DNA of 64,000 nt. Source: Microbacterium sp. RURRCA19A (GTDB taxonomy: Bacteria; Actinomycetota; Actinomycetes; Actinomycetales; Microbacteriaceae). The stretch lies in the NCBI RefSeq assembly GCF_900156455.1, contig NZ_FTNQ01000003.1, positions 186,001-250,000 of the forward strand. The letters run 5' to 3'. Numbering within the stretch: position 1 is the first letter of the stretch; each line of letters opens with the position of its first letter. The notes below the pieces were generated by a model. It was given only the letters and a program-made list of their open reading frames with translations, had not been told where the DNA came from and made no database searches. Below, piece after piece: positions 4,959-11,144 of this stretch. Position numbers and translations under genes: made by a program.

Positions 4959-5555
4959 ATGCCCGACAGCATCGAGCAGGCCAAGCGCGCGCTGCGCGCG
5001 GATCTGCGCGAACGACGCCAGACCGTCTCCGCCCACGGGCGGGAGATCGCCGAAGCCGGCGTCAAGGAGCAGCTCGACGCCCTCGTCGAGCGGCTGGGCG
5101 CGCGGAGCATCTCGTGCTTCCTGTCCACGACGACCGAACCCGGGACGCACGCCTTCGTCGCCGACGCGGTGGCGCGTGGCATCCGGGTGCTTCTTCCCAT
5201 CACCCGCGAGGACGGGTTGCTCGACTGGGCGGTGGCCACTCCGGATGCCGAGATCGCGGAGGGACTCTTCGGCCTCCCCGAGCCGGTCGGCGACGTACTC
5301 GGCCCGATCGCCGTGAACGACGTCGACCTGCTGGTCATCCCCGCGGCAGCCGTCGACCGACACGGGATGCGCCTCGGCTGGGGCCGCGGCTACTTCGACA
5401 AGACCATCGGATCGATGGAGAAGTGCCCGCCGGTGTACGCCGTCATCTTCGATTCCGAGTTCGTCGACGACGTGCCGCGCGACGTGCACGACCAGCCCGT
5501 CTCCGGCATCGTGACTCCCACGCGCACGGTCGCGATCGACCGCTCCGCAGCCTGA
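4959..5555 (+). CDS. 5-formyltetrahydrofolate cyclo-ligase
   Basis: ATP-dependent conversion of 5-formyl-THF to 5,10-methenyl-THF, a folate salvage step in the cytosol. The 198-residue protein has the N-terminal basic helix with KRALRADLRERRQ, the FLSTTTEPGTHAF region, and the C-terminal hallmark GMRLGWGRGYFDKTI that binds ATP and substrate. The ATG at 4959 lies 6 bases after a TACACT box (4947-4952), with no Shine-Dalgarno site, so translation is probably leaderless. A much longer in-frame reading upstream only runs antisense through galU and is not used. The next gene, an FmdB-type zinc ribbon, follows after 18 bases, a pairing common in actinobacteria. Confidence 0.95.
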   Translation: MPDSIEQAKRALRADLRERRQTVSAHGREIAEAGVKEQLDALVERLGARSISCFLSTTTEPGTHAFVADAVARGIRVLLPITREDGLLDWAVATPDAEIAEGLFGLPEPVGDVLGPIAVNDVDLLVIPAAAVDRHGMRLGWGRGYFDKTIGSMEKCPPVYAVIFDSEFVDDVPRDVHDQPVSGIVTPTRTVAIDRSAA

Positions 5556-5573: not shown

Positions 5574-5852
5574 ATGCCCACCTACGCCTATGCCTGCAAG
5601 CAGTGCGGTCACCGCTTCGACGCGGTCCAGTCCTTCTCGGACGCCGCGCTGACCGAATGCCCCGAATGCGGCGGGGAGCTGCGCAAGCAGTACGGCTCGA
5701 TCGGCGTGACGTTCAACGGCTCGGGCTTCTACCGCACGGACTCGCGCGGGTCGAATGGGGCGTCCTCCGGCGCGGCATCCGGTTCGTCGAGCGGATCTTC
5801 GACATCATCGTCGTCGGAGTCGACGAAGACCGCGTCCACCCCGGCATCCTGA
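5574..5852 (+). CDS. FmdB-type zinc ribbon protein
   Basis: Small 92-residue protein with an N-terminal FmdB/putative regulatory zinc ribbon: MPTYAYACKQCG with Cys8 and Cys11, then ECPECGG with Cys29 and Cys32, forming one zinc site. The middle keeps the family segment around ITFNGSGFYRTD (here VTFNGSGFYRTDSR), and the last 30 residues are a disordered Ser/Thr tail. A good ribosome site (GAAGGAA) precedes the ATG. It sits between the cyclo-ligase and mscL genes on the same strand, in a likely operon. The molecular role of this family is not established; binding of nucleic acid or protein is possible. Confidence 0.9.
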   Translation: MPTYAYACKQCGHRFDAVQSFSDAALTECPECGGELRKQYGSIGVTFNGSGFYRTDSRGSNGASSGAASGSSSGSSTSSSSESTKTASTPAS

Positions 5853-5894: not shown

Positions 5895-6311
5895 ATGATC
5901 CAGGGATTCAAGGAGTTCATCCTCCGCGGGAATGTGATCGACCTCGCGGTCGCGGTCGTCATCGGTGCCGCCTTCACCGCAGTGGTCAACGCCATCGTCA
6001 GTGCCATCATCAACCCGCTGGTCGAGATCTTCTACGTGCCGGATGAGAACGGTCAGCTCGGACCGAGCATCACCGGACTCTACGGTCAGACGGTCACCTT
6101 CCCCCTCGGCACCCTCATCACCGCCGTGATCAGCTTCTTCGCCGTCGCGCTGGTCGTGTACTTCGTCTTCGTCTTCCCGATGAACCGCTGGAAGGCGCGC
6201 GCCGCCGCCCGCGCGGGCGTGGTCGAGAAGGCCGACGAGCCCAAGCTCCCCACCGAGCAGGAACTGCTCGTGCAGATCCGCGACCTGCTGGAGCGCCAGC
6301 CGCGCGGCTGA
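5895..6311 (+). CDS. mscL: large-conductance mechanosensitive channel MscL
   Basis: Pentameric inner-membrane channel that opens under membrane tension during osmotic down-shock. The 138 residues match the family length. The N-terminal amphipathic helix plus first membrane helix reads FKEFILRGNVIDLAVAVVIG, with the conserved pore-lining AVVIGAAF segment. A periplasmic loop and a second membrane helix at about 75-98 follow, then a charged cytoplasmic helix ending in EQELLVQIRDLLE. The ATG is preceded by GGAAAGGGAG. It is the last gene of the cyclo-ligase/FmdB/mscL run, and a large inverted repeat follows that may end transcription. Confidence 0.97.
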   Translation: MIQGFKEFILRGNVIDLAVAVVIGAAFTAVVNAIVSAIINPLVEIFYVPDENGQLGPSITGLYGQTVTFPLGTLITAVISFFAVALVVYFVFVFPMNRWKARAAARAGVVEKADEPKLPTEQELLVQIRDLLERQPRG

Positions 6312-6475: not shown

Positions 6476-6712
6476 TCAGTAGTGCGGGGGGATGTCGCGC
6501 AGGAGCTGCGCGTCATTGGGACCGGATGCCGCGGGGGCCGAGGGGCGCTCCCGGGTGCGGTCGTCCGCGGGAGCCGGTTCCGCGCTCGTCCCCGGCGCCG
6601 GGAGCAGGCGCGCACGCCGCGCGCCGCGGACCCGGACGATGGGCTGACGCTCGCCCGCGGGGGCCGCGGCGTCGGGTTCGGTGGCATCCGGGGTCGGGGC
6701 CACCGCGCTCAT
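6476..6712 (-). CDS. small Ala/Pro-rich protein coupled to the helicase gene
   Basis: A 78-residue hypothetical protein whose ATG overlaps the stop codon of the large helicase-like gene by four bases (ATGA), which implies translational coupling. Most of the chain is low-complexity Ala/Pro/Arg sequence, but the end is a distinct segment, NDAQLLRDIPPHY, that looks like a short conserved motif. No domain is recognised. Tight coupling suggests that it acts with the helicase-nuclease protein, but this is inference. Confidence 0.6.
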   Translation of the reverse strand: MSAVAPTPDATEPDAAAPAGERQPIVRVRGARRARLLPAPGTSAEPAPADDRTRERPSAPAASGPNDAQLLRDIPPHY

Positions 6713-9700
6713 CCGTTCAGGTCGAGGGGCTCGGTGGAGGTGCCGGGCTCGCCGGAGTCGTCCGGTGCGGCGCCGAGGAGTTCCGCGATCCGGGATGCCA
6801 CTCCCGCGGGGTCGCTGTACAGATCGAACGCGTGCACCCGCACGTAGTGCCAGCCCAGGCGACGCAGGATCTGCGGGCGCAGCCGCAGGGTCTCGCGCAG
6901 CGACTCCCCGATCGTCTCGGGATCGCTCTCGGCGACGACCGCCTTGCCGCGATGACGCGCGACGAGCGGCAGAAGCCCGCGGTAGTCGAGGTCCACCTCG
7001 ATGCCGAGACGGCGCAGCTCGCGCGCGAGCGCGCGGGTGAGCGGGTCCGCCAGGTCTTCCAGGCGCGCGTCACGACCGCGGCCGGCCAGGTTGCCGAGGA
7101 TCCCCATGAGGGTCGCGGCGCCGTGCTCGAGGCGCCCGTCATCGAACGCCGACGGGCGGATCGACGACACGATCACCATCGACCGCCGCGCGCGCGTCAT
7201 GCCGACGGTGAGCAGTCGTTCACCGTCCGGCGTCGAGAGATCGCCGAAATCGCTCAGCACGCGGCCGTGCCGGGTGAGCCCGAATCCGAGCGAGAACACC
7301 ACGCGGTCGCGGCTCTCGGCCACGGACTCCTCGAGCGTCAGCACGGCGAAGGGTTCGGCGGCATCCCGCGAGATGAAGGCGGCGACGTCGGAACGTCCGG
7401 CGAGCGCCGCCTCGACGGCCGCGCGCACACGCTCGGCATGCCGCCGACTGGCCGTGACGACCATGAGCGACTCGGAGGCGCGGTTCACCGCGTGCTCGAC
7501 CACCAGGGTCACGACGCGGGCGACCTCGGCATCCGGGCTCTCGACGGCGCCGCTGACCGGGTCGGGCGCGCCGACGCCGTTCTCGACGTAGTCGACGCTC
7601 AGGCTGCCGCGACCGAGGAACGAGCCGGCCCAGGGCAGCGACACGATCTCGCCGCCGTAGAACGCATCGTTGACGAGCTGCGCGAGGTCTTCGCCGCCCG
7701 CGCGGTAGCTGCGCGTGAGCGTCTCGACCGGGAGGAGTTCCGCGATCCGCTCGAACACCGACACACCGTCGAACGGGACGTCGTCGGCCTCGTCGTCCAC
7801 GGCGGGCGCGAGCGACGCGCTGACCCGGAACGGCGTCGGCTTCTGCACGACGGGATCGCCGAACAGCACGATCTGGCGGGCGCGGAGCAGCGCCGGCGCC
7901 GCCTCCGCGAGACACAGGGCCGCGGCATCCGCGATGATCACCGTGTCGAAGGCGAGATCGGTGGGGACGTCGGGAACCTCGTACGGGGATGCCAGCCACA
8001 CCGGCGCCAGCGTGCGCAGGAGCGTAGGAGCGGCCTCCGAGATCTCCTGCGCGGTGTGCAGGCCGTCCTTCAGGGAGGTCTTCAGCGCGGCCGCCTCATC
8101 CGGGTGATCGACGATGCCGATGCGCCACTGCTTCGCGAGCTCGGCCGCGAGCACCGGACCCGCAGCCGCGGCGTGCGCCTCGTCGACCAGACGGAAGTCG
8201 CGCTCGAGTCGATCGACGACGGCGGTGTTGGCGCCGAGCAGCGCGCGATCCGTCCGCAGCAGGTGTTCGAGCGCCGACTGCCACCACGCGAACTCGAGCT
8301 CGTTCCCCACCCGGTCTTCCGGAACGTGGCGCACCGACAGCTCGACCAGAAGCTGCTCGAGGCCGAGCCGGGCGAGTTCGCCGCGCAGCTGCGCGCGCTC
8401 GACGAGGTTGTCGAAGAACGTCGACTCGGCCGCGAGGCCCGCGAGCGTGCGCACGAGGATCTGCACCGGGAGCGTCGCGAGCCGGTCGGAACCCTGGCGC
8501 CCGAGGATCTGGTCGAGTTCGCCGAGCATCGCGTCGACCCGCTGCCAGCCGACGTGCACGTCCGCGAGTCCGAGCGGGACCTCGGGCGTGACGCCCGCAT
8601 CGACGACGCGCTGCCACTCGGTGCGCTGCTGCTGGATGCGCACGAGCGCCTCGTACATGTCGGGCACGTGGACGCCGGGGCGCACGTACTCCTTCGACAG
8701 GCGCCGCAGGCGTCGACGGTTCGGGCCGCTCATCGCGGACGAATCGCGGCGGGGCGAGTGCGCGTCGATGAGTTCACCCAGCGGACGTTCGAACACGGTC
8801 GGACTGAAGCGATCCAGGGACTCCCGAATGCCCTGCAGCAGCTTCAGGTACGCGCCGAGCTCGGAGACCGTCTGGAACGGCCGCATGCGCGTCTGCGCGA
8901 TGAGTTCGTACCCGCGCTCCAGCAGGCGCGGGACGTCCTGCGCGTGCAGCTTCCCGGCCAGGTCGTGCGCGGCACGGGCGTCCTCGGTCCGCGTGAAGCT
9001 CACGCCGTACCAGGGCGAATCGTCGGGGCCGAAACGGAACTCTCCCAGCCGCGCGGCGGTGGCCAGGGCTTTCGCCGCGGCGTCGCGGCGCCCCGCGAGA
9101 CGCTCGAGCGTCGCGAGGTCGAACCGGGCCGTCGTCGACGGCGGCGGCGAGACGGATGCCAGGGCGGTCAAGGCGCGCAGCACGTCCAGGGTCGACACGC
9201 CCAGAGCCAGGTGCGGCTCGGTGACGGCGGACCGGTAGTCCCGCAGCACGGTGCGCAGGCGCACCAGCGCGTCGTCGATCTCGGAGACCTTGGGCTGTGC
9301 AGCCTTCTCGTTGCGGCCGATCGCACGGATGAGGTCGCGGCGCACATGGGTCGGCGACACGGCGAGCCCGGTCAGACCGACACCGGCCAGACGGTGACGG
9401 ATGCCGTCGAGCGTCGAGCGGCGGGCGCTGACGACCAGGACACGCTTGCCCGCGTGCACGCACTGGCCGATCGCGTTGATGACGGTCTGCGTGCCGCCCG
9501 TCCCGGGGAGCGTGTGCACCGCGAGCGAATGACCCGCGGCGATCCGGGCGAGGACCCGCTCCTGCTCGGCGTCCGCGTCGAGGAGGAGGGTGTCGGCCGC
9601 GGGGGTGCGTTCGTCGGGGCTCGTGACGACCGGATCGGCACGGCGCACCGTGATGCGGGCGCGGTCGTCGGGGTGCCCGGCCAGGGCGTTGAGCAGCGGA

Positions 9701-10416
9701 TCGTCGAGATGCTCCGCGGCGCGCGCCATGCCCGAGCCGACGTCGGCGAACGACGAGATGACCAGACGCGGGTGGACGACGAACGTCGGGACGTGCGTCG
9801 TCAGTCGACGGAGGTGGTCGATGACCGGTTGCGGCTTGAACACCCCCTGGTCGTACGCCAGGCTCGCGAGGGCCGTGCTGTCGACAGAGATGCCGAGGTG
9901 CGTACGGAACGCCCGGGCCAACTCGGGATTCATCACGAAGGCCCCGTGGAGCTTGAGCTCGAAATCGCCGTTGTGGCGACGGATGGCGAGCGGCCGCAGC
10001 AGCACGGGCGCGGACCACTCCACTCCCCCGATCTTCCACGCGGCGAGGCCCACGGCCAGGTGCACCGGCTCGAGACCGCGCGCGGTGCGCAGTTCGACGT
10101 TCTTCGCCGTGATGCGCTCGGCGGCGATCCGCGCGGTGCGCAGGGCCACCTCGTCGCGGAACAGGTTGGACAGCAGGGTGGCGCGGCCGGTGATGAACTG
10201 CGGCAGGGAGCCCGGATGGGCCTTGGTGATGTCGATGCCCGCGTCGACCGCGTCGTCGAACCGCAGGAGCGTGGAACGACCGCCGAGGGCGGCGGCCTCC
10301 GCGCGGATGCGGTCGCGCTCGGGGTCGGCGACGTGACGAACCACGATGCCGGGCTCCGACAGTCGCAGCTCGCCCGGATCGATCGACGTCGGAACGTCGC
10401 CTTCGGCGCCCGTCAC
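6709..10416 (-). CDS. degenerate SF1-like helicase with C-terminal nuclease-like domain
   Basis: A 1235-residue protein organised like Upf1/DUF4011-type superfamily 1 helicases. An N-terminal region of unknown fold is followed at about 303-309 by a Walker A-like LPGTGGT, where the usual lysine is Gly308. A long helical insert follows, then the Walker B position reads VIIADAAAL (Ala829-Asp830-Ala831 instead of D-E-A). Next come FGDPVVQKP in place of the Q-rich motif III and RLLTVGMTRARRSMVIVSS as motif VI. Residues about 1110-1215 resemble the REase_MTES_1575/Vsr-like nuclease fold, with Asp1142, Glu1163 and Asp1165 as possible acidic residues. The GTG at 10416 has a GAGGA site 7 bases upstream, and a TAGTCT box lies about 35 bases upstream; GTG 10440 is an alternative. 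ATP hydrolysis looks doubtful. Confidence 0.75.
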   Translation of the reverse strand: MTGAEGDVPTSIDPGELRLSEPGIVVRHVADPERDRIRAEAAALGGRSTLLRFDDAVDAGIDITKAHPGSLPQFITGRATLLSNLFRDEVALRTARIAAERITAKNVELRTARGLEPVHLAVGLAAWKIGGVEWSAPVLLRPLAIRRHNGDFELKLHGAFVMNPELARAFRTHLGISVDSTALASLAYDQGVFKPQPVIDHLRRLTTHVPTFVVHPRLVISSFADVGSGMARAAEHLDDPLLNALAGHPDDRARITVRRADPVVTSPDERTPAADTLLLDADAEQERVLARIAAGHSLAVHTLPGTGGTQTVINAIGQCVHAGKRVLVVSARRSTLDGIRHRLAGVGLTGLAVSPTHVRRDLIRAIGRNEKAAQPKVSEIDDALVRLRTVLRDYRSAVTEPHLALGVSTLDVLRALTALASVSPPPSTTARFDLATLERLAGRRDAAAKALATAARLGEFRFGPDDSPWYGVSFTRTEDARAAHDLAGKLHAQDVPRLLERGYELIAQTRMRPFQTVSELGAYLKLLQGIRESLDRFSPTVFERPLGELIDAHSPRRDSSAMSGPNRRRLRRLSKEYVRPGVHVPDMYEALVRIQQQRTEWQRVVDAGVTPEVPLGLADVHVGWQRVDAMLGELDQILGRQGSDRLATLPVQILVRTLAGLAAESTFFDNLVERAQLRGELARLGLEQLLVELSVRHVPEDRVGNELEFAWWQSALEHLLRTDRALLGANTAVVDRLERDFRLVDEAHAAAAGPVLAAELAKQWRIGIVDHPDEAAALKTSLKDGLHTAQEISEAAPTLLRTLAPVWLASPYEVPDVPTDLAFDTVIIADAAALCLAEAAPALLRARQIVLFGDPVVQKPTPFRVSASLAPAVDDEADDVPFDGVSVFERIAELLPVETLTRSYRAGGEDLAQLVNDAFYGGEIVSLPWAGSFLGRGSLSVDYVENGVGAPDPVSGAVESPDAEVARVVTLVVEHAVNRASESLMVVTASRRHAERVRAAVEAALAGRSDVAAFISRDAAEPFAVLTLEESVAESRDRVVFSLGFGLTRHGRVLSDFGDLSTPDGERLLTVGMTRARRSMVIVSSIRPSAFDDGRLEHGAATLMGILGNLAGRGRDARLEDLADPLTRALARELRRLGIEVDLDYRGLLPLVARHRGKAVVAESDPETIGESLRETLRLRPQILRRLGWHYVRVHAFDLYSDPAGVASRIAELLGAAPDDSGEPGTSTEPLDLNG

Positions 10417-10616: not shown

Positions 10617-11144
10617 ATGAGCACAGCCACCAGCGCCGTCTACGACGCCCCGTTCGCCCCGATCCTCTTGACCTTCGTCGACCACGCTCTCGTCCATCTC
10701 GATGTCGCGCACGACGGGCTCGACATCGCACGCGCCGAGATCGCGCACCGCCTCGGCGTCGTCCCGGATCCCGATCCCACTGCGGCGCGGGACGCGCTGG
10801 ATCAGTTGGACGAGTACTTCGACGGCCGGCGTCGGAGCTTCGAGATCCCGCTCGACTGGCGCCTGGTCGGCGGCTTCACGCGGGCAGCCCTGGAGGCGAC
10901 ACGACGCATCCCGTACGGCGAGGTCGCCTCGTACGGCGAGGTCGCGATCATGGCGGGCTCGCCCGGAGCCGCGCGCGCGGTGGGCACGGCCTGCGCGAAC
11001 ACGCCGTTCTCGATCGTCGTCCCCGTCCATCGCGTGGTGCGCGCCGACGGATCCATCGGTGAGTACGGCGGTCACCCCGAGGTGAAGCACTTCCTGCTCG
11101 ATCTCGAGAACGGCGTCGCCGATCGATTGCGATCCCCGGCGTAG
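10617..11144 (+). CDS. alkyltransferase-like protein (Ogt/MGMT fold, no catalytic Cys)
   Basis: A 175-residue protein of the O6-alkylguanine-DNA alkyltransferase family. The C-terminal DNA-binding domain is clear: IPYGEVASYGEVA, the arginine-finger segment ARAVGTACANTPF (Arg120), then the active-site loop. In the enzyme the loop reads PCHRV, but here it is PVHRVV, with Val137 in place of the nucleophilic cysteine. The rest (ADGSIGEYGGHPEVKHFLLDLE) is normal. Direct repair by methyl transfer should therefore be impossible. By analogy with ATL proteins (PWHR), it may bind alkylated guanine and hand it to nucleotide excision repair. GAGGATGAGGAA precedes the ATG. It is divergent from the helicase-nuclease gene. 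Confidence 0.88.
   Translation: MSTATSAVYDAPFAPILLTFVDHALVHLDVAHDGLDIARAEIAHRLGVVPDPDPTAARDALDQLDEYFDGRRRSFEIPLDWRLVGGFTRAALEATRRIPYGEVASYGEVAIMAGSPGAARAVGTACANTPFSIVVPVHRVVRADGSIGEYGGHPEVKHFLLDLENGVADRLRSPA

Follow-up and report, generated by a model that had tools for sequence, protein, structure and literature searches.

A conserved pseudohelicase-like protein and its small tailed partner in Microbacterium and related actinobacteria

Helicase-nucleases of the DUF4011, ProA and Hhe kind, together with the family catalogued in PADLOC as PDC-S37, are the closest described relatives of the gene pair considered here. The nuclease domain of such proteins is named after MTES_1575 of Microbacterium testaceum, which joins a superfamily 1 (SF1) helicase to a Vsr-type restriction endonuclease domain (PMC3710099). 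A DUF4011 gene has also been reported in every Pseudomonas aeruginosa isolate examined, and the accessible part of that report states no role for it (PMC10250203). The DNA analysed in this work is a 64,000-nucleotide stretch of Microbacterium sp. RURRCA19A (the window), in which a large open reading frame (ORF) on the reverse strand (10416..6709 (-), GTG start) encodes a protein of 1235 aa, P0001, and is followed by a small ORF (6712..6476 (-)) encoding the 78-aa protein P0002, whose ATG overlaps the TGA stop codon of the large gene as ATGA. The large protein is a putative pseudo SF1B helicase and pseudo Vsr-like nuclease of the DUF4011-type family, and together the two genes resemble a non-catalytic module not described before more than they do a gene in decay.

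P0001 is homologous to ProA, Hhe and PDC-S37, with best-matching stretches at residues 594-1222, 664-1087 and 640-1221, respectively, which bears out the kinship with conflict and defence nucleases proposed in a first-pass annotation of this DNA. Its NCBIfam scores are 278 bits for ProA (NF058533) and 137.6 bits for Hhe (NF042953), and PADLOC returns PDC-S37 with 280.7 bits over part of the profile. P0001 nevertheless differs from all three in its length (1235 aa, where their profiles have 1903, 1797 and 1550 positions), in the loss of Walker and nuclease residues and in its fixed core locus, and its ProA and Hhe scores lie far under the respective equivalog cut-offs of 1500 and 2000 bits. MTES_1575 was rejected as an orthologue because that protein exceeds 2160 aa and carries HEPN, transglutaminase and winged helix-turn-helix domains (PMC3710099). 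Relatives in open frames of 2167-2240 aa are also carried by three Microbacterium genomes (G007, G049 and G058; loci L264 and L263; here G denotes genomes, L loci and f families, f1 being that of the window), and Walker A is intact in L263 and L264; the 2167-aa protein of L263, which is of the MTES_1575 kind, retains the Walker lysine within an architecture of HEPN_Swt1, DUF4011, AAA_11/12, MTES_1575 and DUF3320. Plasmids also hold distant relatives, with 105 records matched and a DUF4011 or DUF3320 annotation on 14 of the 15 that were listed, and there is one weak phage match; both observations are in keeping with a parent family that was mobile in origin.

The catalytic motifs expected of such an enzyme are largely missing from P0001. 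Its N-terminal part (approximately residues 30-235; 9712..10329 (-)) is DUF4011-like and strand-rich in the predicted structure, the approximate boundary agreeing with Pfam DUF4011 matches at about residues 31-169 of the orthologues L245 and L225. Motif I (Walker A) reads LPGTGGTQT (residues 303-311; 9484..9510 (-)), with Gly308 at the position of the lysine, and motif II (Walker B), VIIADAAAL within TVIIADAAAL (residues 825-834; 7915..7944 (-)), has Ala829-Asp830 in place of Asp-Glu. Between motifs Ia and II lies a long, mostly helical insert (approximately residues 356-800; 8017..9351 (-)) that holds some of the best-conserved stretches of the large-protein family. Motif III, GDP (residues 853-855; 7852..7860 (-)), and motif VI, TRARR (residues 1074-1078; 7183..7197 (-)), are kept. 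In the C-terminal MTES_1575/Vsr-like PD-(D/E)XK domain (approximately residues 1123-1216; 6769..7050 (-)), the first acidic residue, which we take to be the catalytic Asp from comparison with intact orthologues and with Vsr-type motifs, is replaced by Pro1150, and the ExD at 1163-1165 is retained. The motifs and positions named in the first-pass annotation were confirmed, and its reading of an SF1 framework that has lost its Walker residues, a pseudo-ATPase, is supported; the further suggestion that this framework targets a nuclease found no support, since in this lineage the motif of the nuclease has degenerated as well.

Profile scores follow the same division. P0001 stays below the curated Pfam cut-offs for MTES_1575 (PF18741; 21.8 against 38.2 bits), AAA_11 (18.6 against 27) and AAA_12 (19.4 against 27), whereas the orthologues L245, L225 and L250, whose motifs are intact, exceed all three, scoring 71-76 bits for MTES_1575; L245 and L225 also exceed the DUF4011 cut-off, and L250 falls slightly under it (21.7 against 22.2). 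An active SF1 helicase would carry the Walker A lysine and the Walker B Asp-Glu, and P0001 has neither. It shows instead the features of a pseudohelicase, namely a predicted helicase fold, lost catalytic residues and purifying selection, and the loss of these residues probably entails, judging from sequence, the loss of ATPase, unwinding and nuclease activity. As a separate observation, the same genome contains a 540-aa ORF without a Pfam match (G000:C8, L265:6096-7715 (-)), whose C-terminal half aligns with P0001 residues 464-808 at 31% identity over 345 columns; it is a relative of the helical insert alone, the helicase and nuclease motifs being missing.

An AlphaFold2 (AF2) model of P0001 residues 24-1220, computed with 73 homologues, reached a mean predicted local distance difference test (pLDDT) value of 90.6 and a predicted template modelling score (pTM) of 0.81. 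Foldseek and VIA-align group the model with Upf1-like SF1B helicases, the best match being the IGHMBP2-RNA complex (Z 19.9, 506 aligned residues, root-mean-square deviation 4.8), and a family profile search likewise matches SMUBP-2 (expectation value (E) 4.8e-18), DNA2 and Upf1. The two RecA-like lobes that characterise the SF1B fold are present in the prediction, so P0001 is predicted to adopt an Upf1/IGHMBP2-like SF1B fold. The C-terminus of the model runs helix-strand-strand-strand-helix-strand, the order expected of a PD-(D/E)XK core, in a domain mostly outside the range of the fold match. RecC is a familiar case of a dead helicase/nuclease fold, and P0001 might similarly act as a recognition wedge alongside an active partner in repair or in transcription-replication conflict. 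The double loss on a retained predicted fold, one common to nucleic-acid motors, agrees with such a subunit; no active motor or nuclease gene is prominent among the conserved neighbours listed, however, and the linked partner is the small protein, so this role is considered unlikely.

The loss of the Walker lysine is a property of the lineage and not of the window alone. In an alignment of 183 sequences (one ORF per locus from 182 loci plus the window, with many near-identical Microbacterium sequences and some genomes present twice; L001, L002 and one locus with an ORF below 1000 aa were left out), the lysine is missing in 177 and present in only 6, which answers in the affirmative the question, raised by the first-pass annotation, of whether orthologues share the Walker loss. 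LPGTGGTQT is exact in 143 of the 183, most of which belong to Microbacterium or another genus of f1. A more varied set, with 98 rows representing 20 families (without the MTES_1575-like rows L263 and L264, and with L265, L195, L208, L213, L222 and identical sequences removed before counting) contains the lysine in 9 rows and Asp-Glu in the same 9, all of which also have the nuclease Asp. That Asp occurs in 26 of the 98 rows, 17 of them lacking the lysine, and the Asp of the nuclease ExD in 97. The position of the lysine is occupied by Gly in 21 of 33 f1 rows, by Gln in 6 of 8 f6 rows, by Ala in f7, f8 and f15 and by Arg in f38.

Selection on the large gene was estimated by the Nei-Gojobori method as the ratio of non-synonymous to synonymous substitution rates (dN/dS) against eight congeneric orthologues, in six segments. 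The whole ORF gives 0.024-0.170, and the segment containing the dead P-loop (residues 275-355) gives 0.00-0.10, the lowest of the six in 6 of the 8 pairs and the second lowest in the other 2. Because the fold, the P-loop constraint and, in most f1 rows, motifs III, IV and VI persist, the cleft is still likely to bind something, whether nucleic acid or nucleotide, without turning it over. These same data could be read as residual enzymatic activity, with ATP bound or hydrolysed, or nucleic acid cut, through non-canonical residues: the exact conservation of LPGTGGTQT, the low dN/dS around it, the retention of motifs III, IV and VI in most f1 rows and the near-invariant ExD Asp would all fit a working site. 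The window, however, has no lysine, no Asp-Glu pair and no nuclease Asp, the lysine position varies in divergent f1 genera and the P-loop is erased in other families, which makes a residual enzyme quite improbable.

The large protein is nearly universal in the order. At E up to 0.001, and with the genome of the window included in each sample, the genus sample gave matches in 58 of 59 genomes (52/52 of those near-complete), the family sample in 149 of 150 (137/137) and the order sample in 146 of 149 (141/143; ten of its genomes belong to the family of the window). In the class sample the matches fall to just 53 of 197 genomes (52/173 near-complete), some of them being longer relatives of about 2000 aa or single domains. 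Each of the 77 loci retrieved on account of the large gene (a set to which L263-L265, taken on other grounds, do not belong) held a long ORF with a match to the family profile, and genomes as small as 0.8-0.9 Mb retain it (G257, G073). Ordinary decay of a once mobile gene would explain why catalytic motifs are lost while intact orthologues exist; a long frame retained almost everywhere sampled and a dN/dS of 0.02-0.17 speak so strongly against it that it is considered already refuted, and a single decayed copy in the window was rejected on the same grounds. In one reduced genome (G073, 0.93 Mb; L230, on a contig of 927,303 bp), a 1175-aa open frame is kept, and the stretch searched at that locus contains no tail of the kind described below.

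At the locus itself, the large and small genes converge with three genes that we take, by their sequences, to be mscL (5895..6311 (+), used as a query), an FmdB-type zinc-ribbon gene (5574..5852 (+)) and a 5-formyltetrahydrofolate cyclo-ligase (5-FCL) gene (4959..5555 (+)). Searches of the fetched flanks of 78 diverse loci with tblastn found mscL at 46, FmdB at 49, 5-FCL at 44 and galU at 23, and at least one of the first three at 64 (63 if L219, whose sole match is on the unusual strand, is left out). All six lysine-positive f5 and f18 loci in this set have both mscL and FmdB. Orthologues of f5 and f18 at the mscL/fmdB locus retain the lysine, Asp-Glu and the nuclease Asp, and the transition from an active ProA/Hhe-related helicase-nuclease to a fixed pseudoenzyme is deduced from these same-locus orthologues. 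Intact orthologues had been named beforehand as a possible sign that the window holds a merely decayed copy; they do exist, and they do not indicate decay, because the motif-less state is widespread in the order and under purifying selection. An O6-alkylguanine-DNA methyltransferase gene lies divergently to the large gene (10617-11144 (+)); a hint of DNA repair from this neighbour was rejected, the match occurring at 1 of the 78 loci, that of the window.

A quick LG+G4 tree of 80 rows, from which 20 further near relatives and the motif columns were left out, places 62 order-level rows without the lysine in one clade (SH-aLRT branch support 100), apart from a mostly lysine-positive group of f5 and f18 in which L223 and L224, of f18, lack the residue; f38 and f25 (Arg) fall outside. 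The lysine label requires at least 3 changes on this tree, 2 of them forced by starred branches, a count that does not set their direction; repeated loss is the simpler reading, because the outgroup bears the lysine.

Descent from a defence enzyme raises the alternative that the protein is still anti-phage, having come from systems of the ProA/Hhe type to serve, without catalysis, as a sensor or decoy that signals through the small protein or another partner. The profile similarities given above agree with this, and so does family f45, where the only full-length copy (G391:C16, L246; 1337 aa, lysine-positive, motifs intact) sits among genes of lower third-position GC content (GC3), picked mechanically, beside a DEDDh exonuclease (PDC-S48) and a KAP NTPase resembling PifA/QatA, its small gene being on a different contig; this copy fits an accessory defence gene, as expected, in a candidate defence island. 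Fixation is also compatible with defence, since a DUF4011 gene is present in all the P. aeruginosa isolates examined in one study (PMC10250203). Against it stand the near-universal matches in the order, which extend to genomes of 0.8-0.9 Mb, conserved synteny in most sampled families, scores far under the equivalog cut-offs and low dN/dS. Defence genes are usually patchy in distribution, whereas this gene is near-universal and syntenic, and for that reason the defence role suggested initially is upheld as regards relatedness and weakened as regards the present day; a current anti-phage function is judged unlikely.

The small gene accompanies the large one closely. Its product ends in a conserved tail, NDAQLLRDIPPHY (6479..6517 (-)); the consensus of such tails, drawn by eye, is roughly LP[DE]..(E/D)D.D.GWG(D/E)...(N/D)D.RL..(D/E)(R/V/K)PPH(W/H). 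A crude first pattern found the small ORF at only 109 of 182 loci; with a wider pattern, 80 named Microbacterium-type loci were surveyed, and at each of the 78 that proved usable an ORF bearing the tail follows the large gene; in 77, an ATG or a GTG lies between -15 and +20 nt from the large-gene stop. Among the 78 diverse loci, a PPH[W/Y/H/F] tail lies within -200 to +700 nt of that stop at 66, while the controls (the opposite strand over the same interval, 228,919 nt upstream and the large genes themselves) all gave 0. In the genome of the window, a DNA pattern for an ORF ending in [DE]xPPH-aromatic-stop has a single match, that of P0002. At 14 of the 66 loci, distributed over f1, f6, f10, f14, f16 and f18, the tail forms the C-terminus of the large protein itself, which suggests a single working unit of large protein and tail. 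Gene fusion and coupling are classic indications that two proteins function together, and with the ATGA overlap and a dN/dS of 0.10-0.40 for the small ORF in eight congeneric pairs they support the coupled 78-residue partner that had been proposed. A toxin-antitoxin arrangement is not favoured, the tail being fused to the large protein at 14 loci and standing alone elsewhere, and a resemblance to the C-terminal tip of single-stranded DNA-binding protein (SSB) was set aside since many members extend past PPHW, unlike that tip. Searches with the whole of P0002 and with nine C-terminal pieces (43-60 aa) matched 0 Pfam and 0 NCBIfam families at E up to 1, and a literature search, with most subscription papers outside its scope, returned no account of the tail family or the large-protein family and nothing on PDC-S37 or six tail strings.

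The tail reaches well beyond the large protein. A 43-position profile (A3) detects it in 145 of 197 class genomes (128/173 near-complete), nearly always as one copy, and the large protein is matched in at most 53 of the same 197, so that the tail usually occurs without the large gene. A wider profile (A4) detects it in 125 of 149 order genomes (122/143 near-complete); these counts are lower bounds, because A4 missed the small protein of the window at E 0.01 and A3 found it. In the phylum sample the tail appears in 15 of 149 genomes, 10 within the class and 5 outside it as weak matches (E 6.5e-4 to 8.4e-3). At 20 class tail loci, mostly without the large gene (G353 carries it elsewhere), FmdB-type genes cluster in 13 and 5-FCL-like genes in 10. 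The idea of a dedicated accessory protein is consequently sustained for the coupling and not for exclusivity, the tail family being class-wide. Conservation of the tail in genomes that have the large protein and in those that lack it makes a third factor its probable target. In two genomes of 1.4-1.5 Mb without a detected large protein (G502, G390; L300, L301), a 49-aa tail-like protein was matched at E of about 0.005, and G502 has two neighbouring tail matches.

These observations can be assembled into a single history. A helicase-nuclease of the DUF4011/ProA/Hhe kind would have come to lie upstream of a wider and probably older PPHW small gene at the mscL-fmdB locus, would have become the translationally coupled and repeatedly fused partner of that gene, and would have lost, in the majority of the order's sampled families, the chemistry of both ATPase and nuclease. 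Today the large protein may be a scaffold without catalytic activity, holding single-stranded nucleic acid or a nucleoprotein with its helicase cleft and pseudo-nuclease, while the small, probably disordered PPHW-tailed protein would link it to a further conserved factor of actinobacteria; in other families of the class the small protein alone might engage that factor. A non-catalytic scaffold of this kind, derived from an active helicase-nuclease and tethered by a PPHW-tailed partner, is given an even chance of being correct. A broader proposal, in which the small PPH[W/H] docking-tail protein belongs to a class-wide housekeeping module and one order together with f38 recruited a former anti-phage helicase-nuclease that is now a dead core scaffold of nucleic-acid surveillance, is offered only tentatively.

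Several observations weigh against the tethered scaffold or against the sequence of events assigned to it. Residues 801-870, which contain the dead Walker B and motif III, form the least constrained of the six segments in 6 of the 8 pairs (dN/dS up to 0.21). Erosion of motifs I, IV and VI in f3, f4, f9, f10, f14 and f20 means that a grip through these motifs need not be universal. The tail pattern was derived from loci of the same set on which it was tested, and the tail is absent beside the large gene at 12 of the 78 diverse loci; three of these (L195, L213, L222) end at a contig edge, L228 has 153 nt remaining, and the profile detects the tail farther off or on another contig in 11 of the 12 genomes at E <=1.1e-3, the twelfth, G073, being outside the samples of the tail-profile searches. 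In f38 the tail can sit kilobases from the large gene. An AF2 model of the natural fusion L232 predicts the tail with low confidence (pLDDT 52-65), with a short helix at 1174-1179, and any docking on the large protein is hypothetical. As to the order of events, the tree has open forks and composition warnings, the large gene is likewise present at the mscL locus, or close to it, in f38, whose order is a different one, and distribution is the sole basis for placing the small gene first.

The initial observation is confirmed as real and larger than described, with the nuclease loss and the wide tail family as additions. A pseudohelicase retained throughout a bacterial order is, to our knowledge, unusual, and here the switch from intact motifs to a dead protein can be traced between orthologues at one locus. 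If the scaffold interpretation is true, the pair shows a mobile-type defence enzyme turning into a core structural protein, and the tail protein, present in most sampled class genomes yet matching no Pfam or NCBIfam family, offers a handle on a pathway in the form of one short motif and a small gene.

Comparable proteins are known outside this lineage. The Upf1-like SF1B helicases (IGHMBP2/SMUBP-2, Upf1, Sen1/SETX, Aquarius and Dna2) share the predicted fold and profile similarity with P0001, which differs from them in lacking the Walker lysine and Asp-Glu, in its long helical insert and C-terminal Vsr-like domain and in being bacterial. PriA of Deinococcus radiodurans, like P0001, is a bacterial helicase-family protein, titled a pseudohelicase in its source (PMC4504706); it belongs to another helicase family with a role in replication restart, whereas the present case covers most of an order, with a double loss and a tail partner. 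Fungal pseudonucleases of the RNase II family likewise illustrate the repeated loss of catalysis in RNA-binding proteins (PMC8097288); they are eukaryotic exoribonucleases of an unrelated fold. Among these known kinds, the DUF4011 helicase-nuclease and the pseudohelicase, the large protein appears to be a variant, and the tail family appears to be undescribed.

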